Assembly (NCBI GenBank): GCA_030632405.1
Contig: DAOVUU010000020.1
Span: forward strand, 1 to 13,074
Reading direction: 5' to 3'
From: Desulfobulbaceae bacterium
GTDB lineage: Bacteria; Desulfobacterota; Desulfobulbia; Desulfobulbales; Desulfocapsaceae
DNA: 13,074 bases
Below the pieces are notes generated by a model. The model did not search any database. It worked only from the letters and a program-made list of their open reading frames with translations, and was not told the DNA's origin. Shown piece after piece: positions 2,522 to 13,074 of the stretch. The position numbers and the translations under genes are program-made. Every line of letters begins with the position of its first letter. Within the stretch, counting starts at the first letter, position 1.

Positions 2522-2550
2522 TTGACTTTTTGATTGAATGTTGTTAACCA
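2522..2550 (+). promoter_or_regulatory. Candidate birA-operon promoter
   Basis: TTGACT at 2522-2527 is a good -35 element. A 17-base spacing places the -10 at 2545-2550, inside the left arm of the BirA operator, where the hexamer (taacca) is poor. The geometry would let bound repressor exclude RNA polymerase. The -35 is visible, but the -10 is weak and the promoter is unproven. Confidence 0.4.
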
Positions 2551-2575
2551 TGGCAAAAATAAAGGTTAACAACAT
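2538..2575. promoter_or_regulatory. BirA (biotin repressor) operator
   Basis: This is a perfect 12-bp inverted repeat, ATGTTGTTAACC, a 14-base spacer, then GGTTAACAACAT. The core TTGTTAACC-N14-GGTTAACAA matches the known BirA operator architecture of two 9-bp half-sites about 14-15 bases apart. Its right arm runs into the birA ATG at 2574 and covers the AAAGG ribosome-binding site at 2561-2565. Biotin-loaded BirA bound here should repress its own operon and, by read-through, bioYMN. The downstream repressor gene carries a DNA-binding domain, which supports the call. Confidence 0.93.
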
Positions 2576-3500
2576 GAGCCAAAAAGAAAAAATCTACAAC
2601 ATTCTTAAAGAAGCGGAAGATATTCTTTCCGGTGAGAAAATCAGCATTATGCTGGGAATAAGCAGGGTCTCAGTCTGGAAGCATGTCAAGGGAATGGTCC
2701 ATTCCGGCATTCCTGTCGTTACATCCCCGCAAGGTTATCGTTTGACTCCGGATCCTGACAGTCTGAATCCCTGGGAGTTTGGAGAATGGCAGGATCGTAT
2801 GCATTATTTCCAGGAAATATCCTCCACAATGGATGAAGCAACAGAGCTGGCACGACAAGACTGCCCCGATTTCACCGTGGTTGTGGCTGAAAGGCAGACC
2901 CAGGGGCGAGGTCGAATGAAAAGAGTCTGGTTTTCAGGTGATGGCGGGCTTTATTTTACTGTGGTTGTTCGCCCGGACATTCCTGTCATGCTGGCCAGTC
3001 TTGTCAATCTGGCAGCGGCAGTTGAAATGGCTGCTCTTTTACGATCATCCTATGGTATTTATGCCAGTTTGAAATGGCCGAATGACATTTTGATAGATAG
3101 GGCCAAAATTTGCGGTATTCTGTCTCAGATGGAAACTGAAGGTGACCGGATAAGTCATTTAAGAATCGGAGTTGGCCTTAACGTAAATAACAGCCCCGAG
3201 CTTGACGAACCGGGAGCTGTTTCTCTGAAAACTCTTTCGGGTCACCCCGTGTCCAGAAGGGAAATTCTTGTTGCTTTTTTGAACAGGTTTGAAGAACGGC
3301 TGACCGGTTTTGATCCTGAAACCCTGATTGCCGACTGGAGATCAAATAACACTACCATCGGTCGTCACGTGAGTATCTCCACCGTAAAGAAAACGGTGCA
3401 GGGAACCGCCGTGGATATAGATTCCCACGGAGGACTGATTTTGAAAATGGCCGATGGAAGTCACGAGACAGCTATACACGGTGATTGTTTTCATACTTGA
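2574..3500 (+). CDS. birA: Bifunctional biotin-[acetyl-CoA-carboxylase] ligase / biotin operon repressor
   Basis: BirA adenylates biotin, transfers it to carboxylase carrier proteins in the cytoplasm, and with bound biotinyl-AMP represses biotin genes. From the ATG at 2574 it is 308 aa, close to the E. coli protein. Residues about 4-57 form a winged helix-turn-helix (ISRVSVWKHV recognition region), so it belongs to the repressor class. The catalytic domain has GRGR at 111-114, the biotinyl-AMP loop, and KWPND at 167-171 with catalytic Lys, followed by a C-terminal SH3-like domain. An in-frame ATG at 2538 would add 12 residues, but it lies in the left operator arm. The 2574 start is preceded by AAAGG 8 bases upstream and is preferred. 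The operator predicts autoregulation. The stop codon is the first three bases of a repeat element. Confidence 0.96.
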   Translation: MSQKEKIYNILKEAEDILSGEKISIMLGISRVSVWKHVKGMVHSGIPVVTSPQGYRLTPDPDSLNPWEFGEWQDRMHYFQEISSTMDEATELARQDCPDFTVVVAERQTQGRGRMKRVWFSGDGGLYFTVVVRPDIPVMLASLVNLAAAVEMAALLRSSYGIYASLKWPNDILIDRAKICGILSQMETEGDRISHLRIGVGLNVNNSPELDEPGAVSLKTLSGHPVSRREILVAFLNRFEERLTGFDPETLIADWRSNNTTIGRHVSISTVKKTVQGTAVDIDSHGGLILKMADGSHETAIHGDCFHT

Positions 3501-3682
3501 TGGCGTCGTAAAAAGTCCGATCTCCTTCGTTGTAGGTTTTTATCAGAACCTCAGCATACCACATGTATAGCTGAGGGCCTGATAAAAACACTACGCCTCG
3601 TATATCGAACTTTTTAACTTAGCCACCTGAAGCTTCAATTGACCTTTTAACGAGTTTGTCATACGTGATGGCGTCGTAAAAA
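3498..3682. repeat. Dispersed-type intergenic repeat with 17-bp direct repeats, birA-bioY gap
   Basis: The 17-mer tgatggcgtcgtaaaaa occurs exactly at 3498-3514 and 3666-3682. The first copy leads into a long imperfect hairpin and contains the birA TGA. The second copy is followed by unrelated sequence and looks like a truncated end. From memory, similar tggcgtcgtaaaaa-start elements are scattered between genes in Desulfobacterota genomes, but no search was possible. There is no ORF in it, so it would be a non-coding REP or MITE-like element. The gap shows nothing else strong except a weak TTGACC (3639-3644) that might serve as an internal -35 for bioY. Confidence 0.7.
3510..3615. repeat. Long imperfect inverted repeat (hairpin) inside the intergenic repeat
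   Basis: Nested pairings are visible. The inner stem is cctcagcatac (3549-3559) with gtat-a-gctgagg (3565-3576). After a 2-nt internal mismatch come gtttttatcag (3536-3546) and ctgataaaaac (3579-3589), a perfect 11-bp stem. A degenerate middle part follows, then outer arms aaaaagtccgat (3510-3521) and atcgaacttttt (3604-3615) with one mismatch. The RNA could fold into a single long hairpin between birA and bioY. It may moderate read-through or stabilise message ends. Confidence 0.8.
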
Positions 3683-3714
3683 CTCTGAGTGGTAGCAAAA
3701 CTAGAAAAGCGGAT

Positions 3715-4275
3715 ATGGATACATCTACAAAACAATTAAAACTGATGGTATATGCAACAATGATGGCAACCTTGACAGCCGTGGGTGCCTATATTGCAAT
3801 CCCCATTGGCCCCGTGCCAATTGTATTGCAAAATCTTTTTGTCATGATGGCAGGCCTCCTTTTAGGAGGTCGCTGGGGTCTTACAAGTGTAGGAGTCTAT
3901 TTACTGGCGGGAGCCATCGGCCTGCCTGTTTTTGCAGGCGGTACCGGGGGGATAGGTAAGTTCGTGGGACCAACAGGTGGCTATCTGCTGGGCTTTGCAG
4001 CCGCTGCCTATGTGATTGGTATGATCAGTCAGAGAGGTAAGGGGAGTGTGGCCGTTGATGTTTTTGCCATGATTGTCGGTACGTTCATTATCTACTTTTT
4101 TGGTGTTTCATGGCTGAAGATTGTCACAGGTATGAGTATTTCCAAGGCAGTAGCGGTTGGCATGCTTCCGTTTCTGATCGGTGATGTGTTGAAAATTGCT
4201 GCCGCCATTCCCATTGTCAAATCTCTGAGACCGATAATAGCAGGAAATATAGATGTCCATCGCACCGGAGCATAA
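3715..4275 (+). CDS. bioY: Biotin transporter substrate-binding subunit (ECF S component)
   Basis: BioY is the membrane S component that captures biotin for an energy-coupling-factor transporter. The 186-aa length is typical, with about six hydrophobic segments. The family signature is present: PIGPVPIVLQN near residues 30-40, then LLLGGRWGLTSVGVYLLAG and the glycine-rich GLPVFAGGTGGIGKFVGPTGGYLLGF-type stretch at about 69-94, split here by a short loop. The ATG at 3715 has only a weak purine-rich leader (agaaaagcgg). The 214-bp gap from birA holds a repeat, but strand and function point to one biotin-controlled transcription unit. bioM overlaps its 3' end by 23 bases, which indicates translational coupling. 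Some BioY proteins work alone, but here the ATPase and T component are present. Confidence 0.96.
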   Translation: MDTSTKQLKLMVYATMMATLTAVGAYIAIPIGPVPIVLQNLFVMMAGLLLGGRWGLTSVGVYLLAGAIGLPVFAGGTGGIGKFVGPTGGYLLGFAAAAYVIGMISQRGKGSVAVDVFAMIVGTFIIYFFGVSWLKIVTGMSISKAVAVGMLPFLIGDVLKIAAAIPIVKSLRPIIAGNIDVHRTGA

Positions 4276-5029
4276 ACCTGTGTCTATCATTGAAACCTCC
4301 AATCTCTGTCATTGTTTCTCGGACGGAACGAAGAGTCTCAGTGATATATCTCTTACTTTTAATACAGGAGAGTTCACCGTTATTGCGGGTGCCAATGGTT
4401 CGGGAAAAACAACCTTACTGCGGCACTTCAACGGCCTTCTTTTTCCAGAATCCGGTACCGTTTCTGTCAGTGGCAAATCAGTGAAAAAGGATCCGATGGC
4501 AGCCCGCAAACAGGTTGGCATGGTTTTTCAGGATGCCGAGAGCCAGATTGTTGGTGATACTGTCTATGATGACGTAGCGTTTGGGCCGGAGAACCTGCGA
4601 CTGCAACGGGCTCAGATTGACCGGCGGGTGAGCCAGGCTCTGTCCGATGTCAATCTTACCGGATTTGAAGAACGATGCCCGCATCATCTTTCCGGAGGCG
4701 AAAAGCGTCGACTTGCCATTGCCGGAGTGTTGGCGATGACCCCACGGGTACTGTTGATGGATGAGCCGTTTTCCAATTTGGATTATCCCTCAACGTGCAC
4801 GGTGTTGAGCCAGGTCGTCAAGCTGCATGAGGAAGGTCATACTATTATTATCACTACCCATGACCTGGAAAAGGTAATTGCCCATGCCCAGCGGCTTGTG
4901 GTGATGGAGAAAGGATGTGTTGTCAGAGACGGGCTGCCTGAGGAGGTTATTGTTGGTATCGAACAATTCGGAATTCGGCCGCCATGCTCGGTTCAGCTCG
5001 GAAAGGGTATTCAACCATGGGTGAACTGA
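4253..5029 (+). CDS. bioM: Biotin transport ATP-binding protein (ECF A component)
   Basis: BioM is the cytoplasmic ATPase that powers biotin uptake with BioN and BioY. All ABC motifs are intact in its 258 residues: Walker A GANGSGKT (46-53), Q-loop Gln93, signature LSGGE (146-150), Walker B VLLMDEP (166-172) with catalytic Glu171, D-loop SNLD (174-177) and H-loop His203. The QDAESQIVGDTVYDDVAFGPENL stretch after the Q-loop (about 93-115) is characteristic of CbiO/EcfA-type ATPases. The ATG at 4253 sits 23 bases inside bioY with aggaa just upstream. One ATPase gene is present, so a BioM homodimer is expected. Cobalt or nickel CbiO is an alternative from sequence alone, but the BioY and BirA neighbours settle the role. 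Confidence 0.95.
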   Translation: MSIAPEHKPVSIIETSNLCHCFSDGTKSLSDISLTFNTGEFTVIAGANGSGKTTLLRHFNGLLFPESGTVSVSGKSVKKDPMAARKQVGMVFQDAESQIVGDTVYDDVAFGPENLRLQRAQIDRRVSQALSDVNLTGFEERCPHHLSGGEKRRLAIAGVLAMTPRVLLMDEPFSNLDYPSTCTVLSQVVKLHEEGHTIIITTHDLEKVIAHAQRLVVMEKGCVVRDGLPEEVIVGIEQFGIRPPCSVQLGKGIQPWVN

Positions 5030-5751
5030 CCGCTATCGGTTTTAAACCTGGCAGTTCACCGCTTCACCGGTTAGATCCTCGTACCAAGCAGCTGGTACTT
5101 ATGGCATTGAGTGTAACGACTCTGTGGGCAGATGTTCCCTTTCTAGTTGTCAATTCGATGGTAATGATGGTGTTGTTTCACTCGGCTCATCTGCACGCTC
5201 GCAGACTTTTTCTGGAGATCCGGTATTTTCTGTTCTTTCTTTTTTTTGTATTTGTTGTTCGGGCTGTAAGCTTCAGTGATCAGATGTTTCCTGTCATAAC
5301 TCCGAACGAGGCTGCAGAGGCCCTTACTGTCTGCTGGCGGTTGCTGTTGATCGTATTCATGGGTGTGTTGTTGATGTCTACAACTCGAACGGCCGACATA
5401 CGTGCCGCTCTTATCTGGGGCATGAAGCCGCTGCCTTTTGTCAATGAGAGAATGGCGGCCACAATGGTAGGCCTTGTAGTCAGATTTTTACCGCTGATTC
5501 TTTTTCAGGCAAATGAGATAGGGGATGCCATGCGTGCCCGTGGTATTGAGAGACGAAGGAATCCGTTGATTCGCCTTATAAAATTCACCACCACACTTTT
5601 TCGCCGTGTTTTTTTGCGGGCGGATGAACTGGTTGATACCATGCAGGCCCGATGTTATAGTGAGCATCGAACCCTTCCTGAGTTATCTTTTTCCAGGAAT
5701 GACATTATTGCTATAGGAGTTGGAATACTCGTATTATTGAGTGCGTGCTGA
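5017..5751 (+). CDS. bioN: Biotin transport transmembrane coupling protein (ECF T component)
   Basis: BioN is the T component linking ATP hydrolysis by BioM to BioY. From the ATG at 5017 it is 244 aa, with an N-terminal SPLHRLDPRTKQ motif typical of EcfT/CbiQ proteins, several hydrophobic helices, and the two coupling-helix Ala-Arg-X motifs that grip the ATPases: ARG at 174-176 and ARC at 211-213. An in-frame ATG at 4984 is possible, but 5017 is preferred because GGAAAGGG (5000-5007) lies at good spacing and alignable sequence begins there. The gene overlaps the end of bioM by 13 bases. The second coupling motif ends in Cys rather than the more usual Gly or Ser. The family is certain and biotin specificity rests on the operon. 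Confidence 0.93.
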   Translation: MGELTAIGFKPGSSPLHRLDPRTKQLVLMALSVTTLWADVPFLVVNSMVMMVLFHSAHLHARRLFLEIRYFLFFLFFVFVVRAVSFSDQMFPVITPNEAAEALTVCWRLLLIVFMGVLLMSTTRTADIRAALIWGMKPLPFVNERMAATMVGLVVRFLPLILFQANEIGDAMRARGIERRRNPLIRLIKFTTTLFRRVFLRADELVDTMQARCYSEHRTLPELSFSRNDIIAIGVGILVLLSAC

Positions 5752-5820
5752 CGGTTGTATGACAACCTTGAAAAATCAGTAATACGGGCGGAGATCAATG
5801 AAAAACCGGAGGAAAAAATC

Positions 5821-7626
5821 ATGGCTAAAATGAGAGCAATTGAAGCTGTTGTTCATATCCTGAAGAAAGAGGGTATTGATAGTGCCTTTGGTGTCCCCGG
5901 TGCCGCAATAAACCCTCTCTATGCCGCAATGAAGAAAATCGGCGGTATTCACCATTATCTTGCCCGCCATGTTGAAGGTGCGTCCCATATGGCAGAAGGA
6001 TACACCCGCGCCGTAGCTGGCAATATCGGTGTTTGCATTGGTACTTCAGGGCCTGCTGGAACAGACATGGTTACCGGCCTATATTCTGCCGCTGCAGACT
6101 CGATTCCTATTCTCTGTATTACGGGTCAGGCGCCACGAAACAAATTGCATAAAGAGGATTTCCAGGCGGTAGATATTGAATCTATCTCAAAACCATTAAC
6201 CAAGATGTCTATAACGGTTTTGGAGCCGGGCCAACTACCCGGTATTCTGCAAAAAGCCTTCTATCTTATGCGCTCAGACCGTCCGGGCCCCGTCCTGATT
6301 GATCTGCCTATCGATGTGCAAATGGCAGAGATCGATTTTGACCCTGAGACCTATGTATCACTTAAGCCGAGTAAACCTGCTGCTACGCGTTTACAGGCGG
6401 AGAAAGCTTTAGAGATGCTCAATACAGCGGAACGGCCATTGATTGTCGCGGGAGGTGGTATCCTGAACGCTGATGCTGCAGATTTACTGGTGAAATTTGC
6501 TGAGCTGACAGGTGTGCCTGTTATTCCAACATTGATGGGCTGGGGCACGATCCCTGATGATCATCCGCTTATGCAGGGCAAGGTCGGTTTACAGACAAGT
6601 GATCGTTTTGGAAATGCCACTTTCATGAGATCTGATTTTGTATTTGGGATTGGTAACCGTTGGGCGAACCGTCATACAGGTTCCATCGATAACTACACGG
6701 ATGGTCGCAGGTTTATCCACGTTGATATTGAGCCGACACAAATTGGCCGCATCTTTTCTCCTGATTTAGGCATTGTTTCCGACGCCGGATCGGCCCTGGA
6801 AATCTTCATTGAAGTTGCCGATGAGCTCAAGGCCGCAGGTCAACTTCCTGAGCGGGCAGACTGGCTTGCTGAATGTGAGCATCGTAAACAAAACATGCTG
6901 CGCAAAACGGATTATGATCAGGTTCCGATGAAACCGCAGCGCGTTTATCAGGGGATGAATGAACTGCTTGATCGCGACACCTGCTATGTTACAACCATCG
7001 GCTTATCTCAGATCGCGGGTGCTCAATTTTTAAAGGTTTACAACCCGAGGAACTGGATTAACGCTGCCCAGGCAGGGCCATTGGGCTGGACCATGCCGGC
7101 TGCACTTGGAGTCCGTGCAGCCCTGCCGGAGAAAAAAATCGTTGCACTATCTGGAGATTACGATTTTCAATTCCTCGTTGAGGAACTGGCGGTCGGAGCA
7201 CAGCATAAACTCCCCTATCTGCACGTTCTGGTGAATAACGCATACCTTGGCCTGATTCGACAGTCACAGCGCGGTTTTGATATGGAATTTGAGGTAAGCC
7301 TGGCATTTGACAATATTAATATTTCCGATGAAGATGATGCCATAGCCAGCTATGGCGTTGATCATGTTGCCCTGGTAGAAGCACTGGGCTGCAAGGCAAT
7401 TCGTGTCCATAAGCCTGAAGATTTCCCCGCGGCATTTGCTAAAGCGGAACAATTGATGGAGGAATATCAGGTACCTGTGGTTGTGGAATGCATTCTTGAA
7501 CCAGTCACCAATATATCCATGGGCCTGGAACTTAATTGTATCAATGAATTTGAAGATATTCTCTGTCTTGACAGGAACCTTACAGCTGAAACCGAATGGG
7601 TTTCTGACTCAAAAGACTCTCAATGA
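5821..7626 (+). CDS. gcl: Glyoxylate carboligase (tartronate-semialdehyde synthase)
   Basis: Gcl is a ThDP-, FAD- and Mg-dependent enzyme that condenses two glyoxylates to tartronate semialdehyde and CO2, feeding the glycerate pathway. The 601 residues follow remembered E. coli Gcl nearly end to end. The start MAKMRA is conserved, and the N-terminal [14 protein letters not shown] carries Val51 where other ThDP enzymes have the proton-relay Glu, which is diagnostic for Gcl against acetolactate synthase. The ThDP/Mg site is GDYDF at 445-449 with NNAYLG from 472. A frame-open extension upstream exists, but CGGAGG (5807-5812) lies 8 bases before the ATG at 5821 and fixes the start. The last ~15 residues diverge from E. 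coli. No hyi, glxR or glycerate kinase lies nearby. It follows bioN by 69 bases without a recognisable promoter or terminator. Confidence 0.97.
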
Positions 7627-7707
7627 CAAACCAGAATTATTATTGAAGGGATTTCTATGGCCGATTTCCGGTAAGGAGTTATAGCCAGTTCATCGGGCAG
7701 CATTCGA

Positions 7708-8511
7708 GTGCGAAAAGTTCCCTTTATGCAAGACTTACTTCAAATTATCTCACTTGAATCGTCCGGTCTGAGTGTCGTAGAATTATCAGCACTGTCCTCT
7801 ATTATCCTTGTCGGTTCGATAATTCGCGGTTATGCGGGGTTTGGTTTCTCTGCCATCGTGGTGGCTGGAGCCTCACTGTTTTTACCGACACGTGAAGTGG
7901 TGCCCCTGGTGTTGTTTCTGGAAGTTGTGGCCAGCCTGCAAATGGCAGCGCAGGTGCGACGACATGTGAGCTGGAAGATTGTTTTGTCTATCCTGGCAGG
8001 ATCGGTACTGTTTGTCCCAATTGGCCAGTATGTATTGTTATGGGTGGCAGTTGAACCGATGAGAGTCATCGCGGCTGTCCTGCTGCTCATTTCGGTAACA
8101 TTGATTGCAGCAGGAAAATCGCTCCCCTTCAGGAATGAACCCAGGGGATGGTTTCTCATCGGAACGTTGTCGGGTTTTATGAATGGACTGCTGGCAATGG
8201 GCGGTATCTGGATAATGATCTTTCTGCTCGGTTCCGGGATCAAAGTAGTGACTTTGCGTGCTTCTCTTGTGGCACTGTTTTTTATAACCGATTGTTATGC
8301 AATATTGGCAGGATCCGGACAGGGGTTGGTTACCAGTCCCATTTTGGTTCGTTTCGTCTGGGTGCTCCCCGCCTTATTTCTCGGGGTATGGATAGGATCC
8401 CGCAAGTTTGAAGGCAGCAAACCGGATGTCTATAAAAAAGTAGTATTAGTGATACTGGCTACGCTGGCGGTATTGCTGTTACTTAAGGCAATTTACACCA
8501 CTGTTTTGTAG
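7708..8511 (+). CDS. TSUP (TauE/SafE-like) membrane permease
   Basis: This 267-aa hydrophobic protein has about eight membrane segments and the two glycine-rich half-repeats of the TSUP family: GYAGFGFSAIV near residue 41 and GFMNGLLAMGGIWIM near 155. Family members move sulfite, sulfonates, sulfoacetate or organic acids across the inner membrane. Placement 81 bases after gcl suggests movement of a C2 or C3 acid such as glycolate or glyoxylate, but this is inference only. The start is uncertain. GTG at 7708 and ATG at 7726 are both in frame and neither has a well-spaced ribosome-binding site, although AAGGAG occurs at 7673-7678, about 30 bases upstream. The family call is solid and substrate and start are open. 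Confidence 0.85.
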   Translation: MRKVPFMQDLLQIISLESSGLSVVELSALSSIILVGSIIRGYAGFGFSAIVVAGASLFLPTREVVPLVLFLEVVASLQMAAQVRRHVSWKIVLSILAGSVLFVPIGQYVLLWVAVEPMRVIAAVLLLISVTLIAAGKSLPFRNEPRGWFLIGTLSGFMNGLLAMGGIWIMIFLLGSGIKVVTLRASLVALFFITDCYAILAGSGQGLVTSPILVRFVWVLPALFLGVWIGSRKFEGSKPDVYKKVVLVILATLAVLLLLKAIYTTVL

Positions 8512-8684: not shown

Positions 8685-9587
8685 ATGCTGAACAGGAATA
8701 ATTTATTTAAACAGAATGCTATAAAATCATGTGCCGGGATATTGATATCTGCTCTGTTATTTTTTTCTGCCGGGGTCCAGATTCCCGTTCTGGACACGAA
8801 GGCAGACGCCTATTTTAATGAAGCAATAACTAAAGCCGGAGTATCCTATGCCACATGCAGGGTGATTAACGCCACTGTATCAATAATAAAAGAATCGAGA
8901 TTAGAACTGGAACCTGCTGGAGTAGGATTGTCGTTGGCTGTTGGACAGATATTAGATCCGATTAACGACATGACGGAACGTCTATCAGATGTACTTGTGA
9001 TGGCGATTACTTCACTCGGTGTTCAAGAGTTGACATATGAGCTCAGTTTAACCCTAGCACCACCTGTTTTTGCATTTTTCCTCTTTGTTATGTCTATCCT
9101 TTTATGGTTTCAAAACGATAGAATAATCAGACTTCAGAAAGCGACCATGAGCATTCTCTTATTTGTCGGAATTGCCCGCTTCTGTCTTCCCATATCATCT
9201 ATTGCAAATGAGTTTCTCCATGACAATTTCTTTTCTGATCAGATTGCAGATGCAAATAATGAATTAGCCCTGGGAGTTGCTGATCTGGATAAGCTGAAAG
9301 ACATTTCCCTGCCGGAGTATGATGGGTTTATGGAGGCAATTGAGAACAGTGCATCATTTCTCAAACAAAAATCAATACACTTCAAAGATGCTATCGCTGT
9401 CACTGTCAGCAATAGAGGCACTATCATAGAGAATCTCCTAAGGCTTACATTTTTGTATGTCGGTGTATTTTTGATTCAGGTGATCATACTGCCTCTGTTT
9501 ATTTTCTGGCTCCTTTTAAAAACGATAAATTCGCTCTTTTATACAAAGATACCCATAACTGTTGTCCATTCACGAGAACATGAGTAG
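8685..9587 (+). CDS. Unrecognised membrane protein with extracytoplasmic loops
   Basis: I do not recognise this 300-aa protein. It has an N-terminal hydrophobic signal or anchor at about residues 15-34. A long, mostly soluble segment follows to about 122, including ESRLELEPAGVGLSLAVGQ and a Met/Leu-rich helix. Two closely spaced hydrophobic helices lie at about 124-143 and 152-172, then a charged helical loop of about 85 residues rich in Asp, Glu and Lys, and finally a strong hydrophobic segment at about 256-288 with a short basic tail. A strong GGAGGGG (8663-8669) lies 15 bases before the ATG, which is far, but an in-frame stop just upstream rules out a longer product. It is the only ORF on its strand between the TSUP gene and the convergent cluster, ending 36 bases from it. 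Function is unknown. Confidence 0.8.
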   Translation: MLNRNNLFKQNAIKSCAGILISALLFFSAGVQIPVLDTKADAYFNEAITKAGVSYATCRVINATVSIIKESRLELEPAGVGLSLAVGQILDPINDMTERLSDVLVMAITSLGVQELTYELSLTLAPPVFAFFLFVMSILLWFQNDRIIRLQKATMSILLFVGIARFCLPISSIANEFLHDNFFSDQIADANNELALGVADLDKLKDISLPEYDGFMEAIENSASFLKQKSIHFKDAIAVTVSNRGTIIENLLRLTFLYVGVFLIQVIILPLFIFWLLLKTINSLFYTKIPITVVHSREHE

Positions 9588-9623: not shown

Positions 9624-10766
9624 TCAATACACCTTGACCACACTCCTGAGTCTACTGTTATCTATGGTGTTGATAAATATTGGTCTTTCCGCCTTCCCTT
9701 GCGCATCAATACTGATTTTTCCCAATAAGCCCACAAAGTCCCTGGTACTGCGAAGTTTTTGATTGATGCATGATCTGTCACTCTGCTCCGGGCATCTATT
9801 GATTGCCGATAGTATGATTGAGGTACCCTCGGCACCCTGTGCGGCCAGGACAGTACCTTGCGTGCTGAACGATTGCTGGAACTGGCGTTGGATTTCTCTG
9901 CCGTAACCAGTCTGTGGAGTGGAGGAACTGTATGGGTCGGTTGCAAGCATGCCATTCACCAGGTGGAGATCCTCGGGATATTGCAGGAGTATCATTGCCT
10001 GCAGTCCGTCACTGCCGATCATTACCGGGTGGTAGTCCAGTTTTTCGAGTGACTGAGCGATGGTTATGACATGTTTTGCCACCAGGGGGACATACAGAAA
10101 GTTGATACCTTGAATCTGCAGAGATTCCAGTCCGGCCAGTAATTGTTTATTCCCGTTATTGACAGTGAGTTCTGTACAGGTTCCACCAGCAGAAGTGAAT
10201 TTGTTGATAAACTGGTTTGCCAGATATTCAGAATGCGGGTTATTGTCGTCAACAACTACTCCTACTCGCTCTGCAAGGAGTTCATCTCTGACATATAAGG
10301 AAGCAACCGAGGCCTGAAAATGATCATCAAAAAGCAGCTGACTGATATAGCTGTTGTCTTTCGTTATGTCCGGGTGCGTTGATGTTAGGGCTAGTATGGG
10401 GGTTCTGAGCTTTTCGGCTAAGTCCACAAGAGCTAATACCACCTCAGAGTTTGATATTATGACAACAGCAGAAACAGCATCGTCTTCAATCAGTTTAAGC
10501 AGTGCCTTCCGGGCCAGTATTGGTTGATTCTGGTCATCCTCAACAACAATTTCAATCGGGCTGCCATTGTCAAGCGTGGGTTGAAGCTTCAGTGCTGTTT
10601 TGATACCCTCCAGGCAGCTTTGCCCCAACTCCTCATCCAATCCGCTCATTGGACCGATGACACCAATTTTTATCGAGTCTCCTGTGGCAGGTGTTTTCCG
10701 AGTTTTTTCACAGCCAGTTGTAATCAGGACAACACAAATAATGAACAGTAGAGAGTATGTTTTCAT
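9624..10766 (-). CDS. Orphan lipoprotein of the Peripla_BP_6 (branched-chain amino-acid) binding family
   Basis: This 380-aa protein begins with a basic, hydrophobic signal peptide ending TTGC (Cys19), a slightly atypical lipobox, so it is probably a membrane-anchored lipoprotein. Residues about 32-360 match the type I periplasmic ligand-binding fold of LivJ-like proteins. IKIGVIGPMSG (32-42) is the classic first strand, followed by a LGQSCLEGIKTAL helix, an ALVDLAEKLRTPILA hinge region, and VMIGSDG in the second lobe. Such proteins bind amino acids, amides or other small ligands. No permease or ATPase gene is next to it. It starts only 4 bases after the stop of the DUF389 fusion gene, without a Shine-Dalgarno sequence, so reinitiation is likely. 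A sensory or accessory role for that membrane protein is inferred. Confidence 0.85.
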   Translation of the reverse strand: MKTYSLLFIICVVLITTGCEKTRKTPATGDSIKIGVIGPMSGLDEELGQSCLEGIKTALKLQPTLDNGSPIEIVVEDDQNQPILARKALLKLIEDDAVSAVVIISNSEVVLALVDLAEKLRTPILALTSTHPDITKDNSYISQLLFDDHFQASVASLYVRDELLAERVGVVVDDNNPHSEYLANQFINKFTSAGGTCTELTVNNGNKQLLAGLESLQIQGINFLYVPLVAKHVITIAQSLEKLDYHPVMIGSDGLQAMILLQYPEDLHLVNGMLATDPYSSSTPQTGYGREIQRQFQQSFSTQGTVLAAQGAEGTSIILSAINRCPEQSDRSCINQKLRSTRDFVGLLGKISIDAQGKAERPIFINTIDNSRLRSVVKVY

Positions 10767-10770
10767 GATA

Positions 10771-12666
10771 TCAGGGGATGTATGTTAATTTTGCTCTGAT
10801 AACCAGATCGTCTGAGAAATTTTTCATCACTTTGCGTTTAAATTCATTCAAGTCGCTCCTGCCCAATTGCTCACGGGCAAGTATTTCGACCGTTAAAACT
10901 TTTTTTCGGCCTGTTTTAACTAGGTCGGCATTCTGGACAATGAGATACTTGCCGTTTACATAGAAACGCTCTATCCGCCAGGCTTTTTCAAAGGCAGCTT
11001 TTTCGGTGATGCCCTGATAGGCCATAAACAGCGGAATCGAGACGGCGATTAAAAAAATGCAGACGATGGACAGGCCTCGTTTATCTCTCACCACTCCGGA
11101 GAATCCTAAAATCCGAAAGGTAAGGGTGGCAGCCAGAACGATACCGATGAAATTGGTCAGAAAAAGCAGAAAGGCATGGCTGAAAAAATAAAAATCCAAT
11201 CGACCGATACCTATCCAGGCAGTTGCAAGGGGAGGAACAAGAGCCACGGCAATAGCCACCCCGGCAAGACTTTGAAGAATCTCTTTGTACGATTTAGTAT
11301 ATGCTCCTGCTATCCCGGCGACGATTGCTACGATAAGGTCAAGAACAGTCGGGTTCAGTCGGCCCTGCATCTCATTTGTCAGCGGCTGGTAGGGTGACAA
11401 CAGTGTCATGATAGCTGCGGTGGCCAGGGCTAAAACCACTCCGGTGAAGATTTTCCACAGGGATTGTCTGAACATGTTCCTGTCCATACGGAGAATCCCC
11501 ATGGCCAGAGCAATAATAGGAGCCATAAGGGGAGCCAGCAGCATTGCACCTATGATGACCGAAGAACTGTTCATGGCGAGACCTACAGTGGCCAGCATAG
11601 TACTCAAAACCATCAGCACCAGATAAATTGAGCTCGGGCGAGCATCATCTCTCAGGGCAACAAACAGATCTTTAAAGCGATCCTCAGATGCGTAGGTAAA
11701 AAATGGGATTCGTTTATTTTTTGCCTTGAGGAGTTCTTTGCCAAGGGGAAGAGACTTCGTTATAAATTTCTCACTGCCGGGTGTACTGCGCTGGTTCTCC
11801 AACGCCAGGTCTTTACCATGGTTAATCTTTATTGCCTCAGGTATGACACGGCAATCGACTGGTGTTTTACCTTCTTTTTCGCCATCGATATAGACATTGA
11901 GTTCATTTTCTGATTCCAGATTAATGTGGGGGCTTTTAATAAAACCGATTGAATCAGGAATAGTGGATGATATCTTTACTGTCAATATGCGAAACATGAG
12001 ACGAAAATAGTCAATAATCGACATGGGTGCGATGACAACCATGGACAGCAGACCGTCAGTAAACGAACTATCATGGGCTATCAGGCGAGATGCAAAACTG
12101 TGTTCAGGATTCGCAAACAGTAGACAGCCGCAGGCAGCTGTTGAAAGCTCTGTGTTGTTTTTCCCCGAGGTCTTAATGGTAAATGGTAGAAGGTGTATAG
12201 AAAACAGCTGTTTCATACCATTGACAAACAGCTTTATTTTACTTGTTTTTTCGAGACTATCTACCAGTGTAAAGAGACCTATTTTTGCTTTAAAGAGTAA
12301 TATTTGATCGTTGCACAGGACTATATCAAGATTTTTGGGATCACTTCGAAGAGAGAGAGAGACTGCCTCTTTAAAATCCTTTGGCAGACCATAGGTGCTG
12401 ATGAGGGATAGTTGAGATGGCAGGGGAATAAAGCCTATACTAAACTGATACTCCATCGCCAGGCGCATGACTTTTTTGATAACATGGATCGGACCACAGA
12501 CAACAACGTGGAGACAATTCTGCAGGTACTCTTTTTCTGAAGCCAGGACAATTTCAATTGGTACCGATGTTATATCGGCGCCGTGAAGGTTTTGCTCAAT
12601 TTTGGTGACATAGTCCTGCCCCTCCTTAGAGTAGATAAAGAGTGCAGATGGTACATGATCGGCCAT
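10771..12666 (-). CDS. Fusion of degenerate diacylglycerol-kinase-like domain to DUF389 membrane domain
   Basis: This 631-aa protein has two parts. Residues about 5-282 show the diacylglycerol/lipid kinase fold. DSSFTDGLLSMVVI (199-212) and YIDGEKEGKTPVDCRVIP (259-276) match the conserved C-terminal lobe of DgkB/YegS proteins. The nucleotide-binding GGDGT is replaced by CGPIH (57-61), and the P-L-G-T-x-N segment reads PLPSQLS (81-87), so catalysis is unlikely. Residues about 342-525 form the TIGR00341/DUF389 hydrophobic domain, with several helices including SSVIIGAMLLAPLMAPI and VALVPPLATAWIGIG. Another helix (533-550) precedes a soluble C-terminal domain. DUF389 proteins have no established reaction known to me. 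It lies between an unknown partial gene (24-base gap) and the lipoprotein gene (4-base gap), forming an apparent minus-strand operon. Confidence 0.88.
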   Translation of the reverse strand: MADHVPSALFIYSKEGQDYVTKIEQNLHGADITSVPIEIVLASEKEYLQNCLHVVVCGPIHVIKKVMRLAMEYQFSIGFIPLPSQLSLISTYGLPKDFKEAVSLSLRSDPKNLDIVLCNDQILLFKAKIGLFTLVDSLEKTSKIKLFVNGMKQLFSIHLLPFTIKTSGKNNTELSTAACGCLLFANPEHSFASRLIAHDSSFTDGLLSMVVIAPMSIIDYFRLMFRILTVKISSTIPDSIGFIKSPHINLESENELNVYIDGEKEGKTPVDCRVIPEAIKINHGKDLALENQRSTPGSEKFITKSLPLGKELLKAKNKRIPFFTYASEDRFKDLFVALRDDARPSSIYLVLMVLSTMLATVGLAMNSSSVIIGAMLLAPLMAPIIALAMGILRMDRNMFRQSLWKIFTGVVLALATAAIMTLLSPYQPLTNEMQGRLNPTVLDLIVAIVAGIAGAYTKSYKEILQSLAGVAIAVALVPPLATAWIGIGRLDFYFFSHAFLLFLTNFIGIVLAATLTFRILGFSGVVRDKRGLSIVCIFLIAVSIPLFMAYQGITEKAAFEKAWRIERFYVNGKYLIVQNADLVKTGRKKVLTVEILAREQLGRSDLNEFKRKVMKNFSDDLVIRAKLTYIP

Positions 12667-12690: not shown

Positions 12691-13074
12691 TTAAAACATT
12701 ATACCACTAATAGAGTCAAAGTTTGGAAACTTATCAAAGCTGATAGTCTGGCGGGTATGAAGATCATATACAAGACCTCCTTTTTCAGTCAGGCCAATAA
12801 GATAGACCCGTTTTTTGCCATCAGCAGGTATTGCACCCCATGATTTTTCATGTTGGGCTGTAATCATGCCTATCAGTACAGAACTCCGGACATTGTACCG
12901 TTGAGCAACAGAGAAATTGGCAACATTGGATGCCAGAGTGGCAAAGGTTTCATCGTATGCAGGTGGATATTTCTGCTTAAGGTTGAGTTCCGGGACCTGA
13001 AGAGCAATGAAGTCTTCTGTCCATTTTATCACATCACGGAACCATTTCTCTGTAATAAAAAGATATTGACGATC
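12691..13074 (-). CDS. Unrecognised protein, C-terminal part (5' end beyond window)
   Basis: The reading frame is open from the window's right edge to the TAA at 12691-12693, showing 127 residues. A GTG at 13032 could be read as a start, but the 14 codons before it are also open with plausible protein sequence (YLFITEKWFRDV), so the gene most likely continues outside the window. The visible part is soluble with no membrane segment. It has a YPPAYDETFATLA helix, a hydrophobic strand VLIGMIT, and a C-terminal RVYLIGLTEKGGLVYDLHT region that looks like alternating strands. I do not recognise a family. It precedes the DUF389 fusion gene by 24 bases on the same strand and is probably co-transcribed with it. 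Confidence 0.7.
   Translation of the reverse strand, partial: DRQYLFITEKWFRDVIKWTEDFIALQVPELNLKQKYPPAYDETFATLASNVANFSVAQRYNVRSSVLIGMITAQHEKSWGAIPADGKKRVYLIGLTEKGGLVYDLHTRQTISFDKFPNFDSISGIMF

Follow-up and report, generated by a model that had tools for sequence, protein, structure and literature searches.

Comparative sequence analysis indicates that the gene at positions 10771..12666 (minus strand) of the window, by which we mean the whole 13,074-nt stretch of Desulfobulbaceae DNA that was analysed, belongs to a strictly paired two-gene unit, in which a pseudo-lipid-kinase fused to a DUF389 membrane domain is accompanied by a solute-binding lipoprotein. The pairing and the dead kinase together suggest an undescribed membrane sensor or transporter. 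The reading that we favour, with somewhat less than even confidence, is that the two proteins form an inner-membrane module in which the lipoprotein would dock on the DUF389 fusion for uptake (or sensing) and the dead kinase would regulate from the inside.

Architecture and distribution of the fusion

The fusion gene has an ATG start and encodes 631 residues. A preliminary description of this DNA had placed a lipid-kinase fold fused to DUF389 here, and this is confirmed by the minus-strand open reading frame and by two Pfam matches, YegS_C at residues 151-281 (E 3e-10, 40.5 bits against a cut-off of 27) and DUF389 (PF04087) at residues 375-511 (E 7e-38, 130.2 bits against a cut-off of 23.9, model positions 1-137 of 137). 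Three parts can be delimited, all on the minus strand: a pseudo-lipid-kinase domain (residues 1-285, 11812..12666), assigned to the YegS/DAGK fold by profile evidence and predicted to be cytoplasmic; DUF389 with its flanking helices (residues 346-552, 11011..11631), which has about seven hydrophobic segments; and a C-terminal domain (residues 553-631, 10774..11010), marked out by conservation and predicted from hydropathy and charge to be periplasmic. The full 137-position match, well over the Pfam cut-off, is what the protein shares with other DUF389 proteins, which were found in 5 of 14 control genomes, among bacteria as well as archaea. It differs from them in scoring under both NCBIfam cut-offs (88.0 bits against 94.75 for TIGR00341 and 127.8 against 146.5 for TIGR00271) and in having a dead lipid kinase and a binding protein, whereas 44 other loci matched in the membrane part only. 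Usp-DUF389 fusions (L062, and L027 with a Usp match under the cut-off) likewise carry a soluble domain in front of DUF389, but theirs is a universal-stress domain rather than a lipid-kinase fold, and no binding protein was found in their available flanks.

The distribution of the fusion is patchy among the genomes searched. Within the class it occurs in 24 of 257 genomes: 23 hold members of what we call the main clade, in the case of G111 only a remnant, and one, G185, holds a member of a distant clade. A set of 395 genomes drawn evenly from the phylum, searched with a cut-off of E 1e-30, adds six main-clade genomes (G268, G305, G336, G419, G465, and G486) and three of the distant clade (G569, G586, and G589). 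Class-wide searches around G465 (22 genomes) and G586 (194 genomes) at E 1e-60 gave four and two genomes, respectively, none of them additional, and a contig scan with patterns from one protein recovered only the closest relative. Among plasmid records there was no full-length relative of the fusion (nine records, all partial matches), and none of the five DUF389 loci on viral contigs matched before residue 304. The main clade thus amounts to 31 loci, spread over several families and 29 genomes. Alignment A1 holds 20 full-length or nearly full-length fusion sequences (the partial L020, L021, L023, L024, and L047 were left out, as was L003, which shares a contig with L002), and its members are 47-87% identical to the window's protein, the closest named relative being that of Desulfobulbaceae bacterium UBA2775 (Desulfobulbales) with 87% identity over residues 1-591.

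The window comes from a draft genome of 421 contigs. Four of the 31 main-clade copies are broken or remnants (L097, L098, L099, and L112, in G107, G062 with two, and G111), so that either the module is dispensable or these assemblies are faulty; draft-assembly errors and real loss are indistinguishable in these four. The distant relative in G589 (L111, 6982-9296, plus strand) is split into two overlapping frames, and an open reading frame that weakly matches VTT_dom, under the cut-off, lies directly upstream of it.

The N-terminal pseudo-lipid-kinase domain

Sequence profiles bear out the lipid-kinase fold that had been read in the N-terminal half. Against PDB sequences, the diacylglycerol kinase 4wer is matched by the single fusion protein at E 2.6e-10 and by the family profile at E 1.8e-13, and the profile also reaches DgkB 2qv7 (E 6.9e-8) and YegS 2p1r (E 1.1e-5). 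In an hhalign comparison of the N-terminal 290 residues with 12 intact DAGKs drawn from the same taxonomic family, 261 columns covering both lobes in order were aligned with 98.9% probability (E 2.7e-17), against 0.1% for the DUF389 part and 1.3% for the binding protein as controls. NCBIfam lipid-kinase models span residues 57-290, all of them far under their cut-offs (best E 4e-17, 62 bits against 313). These comparisons argue that the N-terminal half is a two-lobed, colinear YegS/DAGK lipid-kinase fold. In three relatives scanned with Pfam, YegS_C was absent (L048 and L022) or under the cut-off (L055, 19.2 bits), so for them the fold rests on the family alignment. AlphaFold models built with two input sequences had low confidence (mean pLDDT 36.3 over the whole protein and 38.4 over residues 1-290) and lend the fold no support. 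A Foldseek search with the latter model returned nothing at E <=0.001; the top match was Argonaute (E 0.011) and the second NAD kinase 1u0r (E 0.015, TM 0.21), an enzyme of the same superfamily as the lipid kinases. We attach no weight to this result.

The fusion family shares with the YegS/DgkB/BmrU-type lipid kinases (PF00781 and PF19279; 4wer, 2qv7, 2p1r) the two-lobed fold, the C-terminal beta-sandwich lobe and three acidic residues, Asp114 (12325..12327), Asp204 (12055..12057), and Asp261 (11884..11886, all minus strand), which are kept in 27 of 27, 28 of 28, and 28 of 28 main-clade rows with letters there. Together with Glu263, kept in 20 of 28 rows, they presumably are the counterparts of the metal-site residues of DgkB. 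The family differs from these kinases in its attached membrane domain and in the loss of both nucleotide motifs. Alignments with 4wer, DgkB 2qv7, and the 12 intact DAGKs put GPIHV (residues 58-62, 12481..12495, minus strand) in the place of the GGDGT nucleotide loop and PLPSQLS (residues 81-87, 12406..12426, minus strand), which includes Gln85, in that of PxGTxND. The preliminary description had located PLPSQLS correctly and had recognized the loss of the loop, although its CGPIH lies one residue off. Neither GGDGT nor PxGTxND was found in any row covering the site, be it of the main clade (0 of 28) or of the distant clade (0 of 4), so that the suggested retention of the fold without its nucleotide loop proves common to the family. 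The column of the loop's Asp is occupied in the main clade by L (20 rows), I (5), M (2), or V (1), whereas the distant clade keeps this Asp in all four members while most of the loop is lost (LGDRE, LSDED, LGDED, and IPDEA in L100, L109, L110, and L111). The main-clade member L103 reads SGDLT, one column off the place of GGDGT. Given the Asp of the distant clade and the SGDLT of L103, the ATP loop seems to have been lost in steps, of which the main clade has gone through the most, and because they keep this Asp the distant-clade proteins may bind a nucleotide.

These residues are also the basis for supposing that the protein is still an active kinase, or another phosphotransferase, with a changed nucleotide site that uses the three retained Asp. 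Their conservation in every main-clade row with letters there, the loop's Asp in the distant clade and the displaced SGDLT would all fit such an enzyme, but we consider it improbable because Asp is missing at the loop column throughout the main clade, GGDGT and PxGTxND occur in no row, Glu263 is kept incompletely, and Pfam reported no DAGK_cat (PF00781) match in the fusion protein even at a limit of E 10. The sole find of a genome search for DAGK_cat was a separate gene (G000:C86).

The N-terminal domain is nevertheless constrained. In the one pair compared, the window against L002, dN/dS was 0.158 for the N-terminal domain and 0.041 for the membrane part. His53 and Lys64 are newly conserved in the fusion family and nearly invariant in A1, and Gln85 (27 of 28 main-clade rows) is likewise the family's own conserved residue. 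With low dN/dS, conserved residues and a lost loop, the domain is maintained for some role, most probably not the usual phosphorylation with ATP, and we regard it as a conserved pseudo-lipid-kinase that is evidently under purifying selection. A decayed fusion with a functionless N-terminal half, or a chance assembly, might be argued from the 4 of 31 main-clade copies that are frame-broken or remnants. As a general explanation, decay is refuted by the conservation of the fusion family, with the spread of its main clade over several families (31 loci, 29 genomes), its 47-87% identity in A1 and its N-terminal dN/dS of 0.158, and we give it next to no credence. Nor is the window's protein a lone decayed copy, because the loss of the motifs is common to the whole conserved family.

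Pairing with a solute-binding lipoprotein

The second gene of the unit (9624..10766, minus strand), which the preliminary description had overlooked, lies 4 nt downstream of the fusion gene and encodes a 380-residue solute-binding protein of the Peripla_BP_6 family (Pfam E 2.2e-33). Its predicted lipobox cysteine, Cys19 (10710..10712, minus strand), is aligned with a Cys in 25 of 25 binding proteins, 17 of which fit the strict lipobox pattern. The closest PDB entry to the family profile is 3td9, a named branched-chain-amino-acid binder (E 3.4e-61). In the 24-row alignment A4, which holds all of the 25 binding proteins except L088 (near-identical to L087), Ser105 and Asp253 are invariant, and these are places that we take to be amino-acid-binding in LivJ, so the solute is most likely amino-acid-like. 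The lipoprotein shares its fold and overall alignment with the Leu/Ile/Val-type ABC binding proteins (Peripla_BP_6; 3td9, 1usg), from which it differs in being paired with DUF389.

In all 29 main-clade loci that have downstream sequence, this binding protein directly follows the fusion on the same strand. This count includes G121, where the fusion is split over two contigs and the binding protein is beside the last piece, together with the four broken or remnant copies; G033 and G305, whose contigs end inside the fusion gene, are outside it. The gaps between the two genes are -4 to +30 nt, except for 166 nt in G106 and one deletion remnant, and at six loci the genes overlap by 4 nt. Seen from the other gene, this binding protein is present with at least 200 bits in 22 of the 257 class genomes (cut-off E 1e-50, up to seven candidates scored per genome), and every one of the 22 carries the fusion too, although G111 has both genes only as remnants. 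The full-length proteins score 493 bits or more, and the next family follows from 191 bits downwards (five more genomes, and another match in G031), and the only main-clade fusion genome of the class outside these 22 is G033. The distance matrices of the two proteins are correlated, with r 0.796 over 25 pairs where the best of 2000 permutations reached 0.313, a co-variation that joint inheritance alone would also explain. In contrast, no such binding protein was found at any of 44 loci with other DUF389 architectures, 31 of which have at least 300 nt downstream, nor beside the fusion of the distant relatives in G185, G569, G586, and G589 (901 nt downstream in G589). Since four distant relatives have none, the DUF389 core presumably works without a binding protein in the distant clade. 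On a bolder reading, which we hold to be less likely than not, this clade, with its retained Asp and no binding protein, would be a relic of a stage before the death of the kinase and the recruitment of the binding protein.

These gene arrangements argue that fusion and binding protein are a strictly paired two-gene unit. The lone lipid sensor without a partner that was first considered is rejected on account of this conserved pair, and because the fusion gene is half of a two-gene unit its likely role moves to a binding-protein-coupled membrane module.

Membrane core, topology and periplasmic tail

On hydropathy and positive charge alone, the N terminus of the fusion protein is predicted to lie in the cytoplasm, followed by about seven membrane segments and, in the periplasm, by a tail of some 80 residues. 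Asp443 and Asn505 of the membrane core are invariant in A1. Many transporters contain an internal repeat, but the one sought in DUF389 fell short of significance (probability 5%). The tail carries a conserved motif of the type WxxERFxVNxKYLI at residues 563-576 (10939..10980, minus strand), which we propose as the docking site for the binding protein. The mean identity of the tail is 52% within the main clade and 14% to the distant relatives without a binding protein (26% kept), compared with 67% and 50% for the membrane part (73% kept) and 41% and 18% for the kinase N-lobe (43% kept), the distant clade being represented in these comparisons by four members only. The sharpest stretch, residues 558-577, has 70% identity within the clade linked to the binding protein against 16% to the clade that lacks it. 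A docking surface tied to the binding protein would be expected to show such a pattern, although tail divergence is not the sole difference between the clades, because the kinase half has strongly diverged too.

The main rival to our proposal draws on the same pairing and the same tail data. It holds that the unit is a receptor without transport: an amino-acid-like solute is sensed by the binding protein and the signal relayed by DUF389, while the dead lipid kinase serves as the output domain through its binding to a lipid, to a nucleotide or to a partner, for instance the other DAGK-type enzyme of this genome. Signalling output would be a fitting role for a dead enzyme domain on the cytoplasmic face, and a separate DAGK_cat gene is indeed present in the same genome. 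We nevertheless think such a receptor unlikely, if to be taken seriously, as no third gene family that could be a regulator is widely recurrent beside the pair, and DUF389 is also joined to other soluble domains, such as Usp, that seem rather to feed into a membrane activity common to them.

Neighbouring genes

Neighbours were compared by clustering at 35 loci, with Pfam or NCBIfam annotation for some of them only (Pfam for two members of the AsmA cluster, one of the PLD-like cluster and one of the Exo_endo_phos cluster). The binding protein is present at 28 loci and the next family, AsmA-like, at 8, and no other family is widely recurrent. No third gene family exceeds 8 of these partly annotated loci, which makes a widely recurrent ABC permease or ATPase beside the pair, or a TRAP or TTT membrane partner, appear improbable. 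The AsmA-cluster gene adjoins the pair in L084, L086, L090, L092, L095, L097, L102, and L103. In seven of these it is upstream of the fusion on the same strand with gaps of -4 to 345 nt, five of them under 25 nt, including one 4-nt overlap, and in L103 it follows the binding protein after 60 nt. A phospholipase-D-like (PLD-like) gene is near the pair in L084, L086, L090, and L112.

The AsmA-like and PLD-like neighbours hint at a lipid theme, and AsmA-like proteins are reported to have a part in phospholipid transport (PMC8593681, PMC8912898). The fusion and the lipoprotein could accordingly be an envelope-lipid module that controls phospholipid traffic, or takes part in it, with these neighbours, the dead kinase reading diacylglycerol or phosphatidate. 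The dead domain is a lipid-handling fold by ancestry, and the 8 loci with an adjoining AsmA-cluster gene span four genera and three families, to which the PLD-like cluster adds 4 loci and the Exo_endo_phos cluster 3 of the 35. Such neighbours are, however, absent from most loci, including the window as far as its sequence reaches (the contig ends 408 nt upstream of the fusion), and the binding protein resembles amino-acid binders (3td9) rather than lipid binders, so that we consider an envelope-lipid role doubtful, more so than a receptor.

In the window, the gene upstream of the fusion (12691-13074, minus strand) is cut by the contig end. Its 113-residue open reading frame has no Pfam match; in L086 a relative is encoded at 15176-15781, some 6.4 kb upstream of the fusion. 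A gene for a 300-residue protein (8685-9587, plus strand) lies tail to tail with that of the binding protein; its product looks membrane-like by eye and has no Pfam match at E 0.1 and no NCBIfam match at 1e-10. The remaining genes noted are on the plus strand. A RuBisCO-like C-terminal part (nearest model OiaX, under the cut-off), an RpiB-type sugar-phosphate isomerase (over the cut-off) and an MFS transporter stand in a row at 88-2403, perhaps a sugar-acid breakdown operon. At 2538-5751, the biotin ligase BirA is followed by a BioY-like protein (recognized by eye, with no NCBIfam match) and by ECF ATPase and T components (under their cut-offs), which is probably a biotin uptake cluster, and at 5755-8511 a glyoxylate carboligase (1067 bits, over the cut-off) is beside a TauE/SafE-type exporter.

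Proposed mechanism and significance

We put forward the following hypothetical mechanism for the two-gene module. The lipoprotein, of Peripla_BP_6 fold and anchored in the periplasm, would capture a small solute, most likely amino-acid-like, and would dock on the fusion protein at its periplasmic C-terminal tail. The DUF389 helices would form the membrane pathway, so that the solute is passed to DUF389 or a signal is sent through it. On the cytoplasmic side the lipid-kinase fold, which would no longer hold ATP in the usual way, may act as a non-catalytic ligand-binding regulator of this pathway. A channel, a scramblase and a receptor are equally open as readings of DUF389. Two considerations make us prefer uptake to sensing alone. 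The DUF389 core is found widely in the company of other soluble partners and lacking a binding protein, and for the coupling of binding proteins, at the level of translation, to a membrane protein of an unconventional kind there is a published precedent in transport, the TAXI-GltS system of Bordetella pertussis (PMC12344293). There, too, a lipoprotein binding protein is coupled through translation to a membrane protein for which no such partner had been known. The likeness is one that we propose; the families of both partners are different, and the ligand of TAXI-GltS, glutamate, was measured.

A lipid-kinase fold, DUF389 and binding proteins are each of a known kind, and in the accessible portions of the open-licence literature their combination is found in no paper. 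Within those portions, the papers that mention DUF389 do so in passing (PMC10672838, PMC6563660, PMC7674036, PMC11888242), and no function, lipid-kinase fusion or binding-protein partner was found in them. In PMC3702460, PMC12419801, PMC7768417, and PMC8987031 the string is part of DUF3892 or DUF3893, and TIGR00271 is named in PMC11237643. As far as titles and the openings of abstracts go, no bacterial pseudo-lipid-kinase of this kind is apparent in that literature. The pairing offers a handle on the function of DUF389, as the ligand of the lipoprotein is measurable and would point to the role of the membrane domain. If the proposed module is real, it would give binding proteins a further unconventional membrane partner besides that of TAXI-GltS, and would be a case in which a lipid-kinase fold serves as a regulator rather than as an enzyme.
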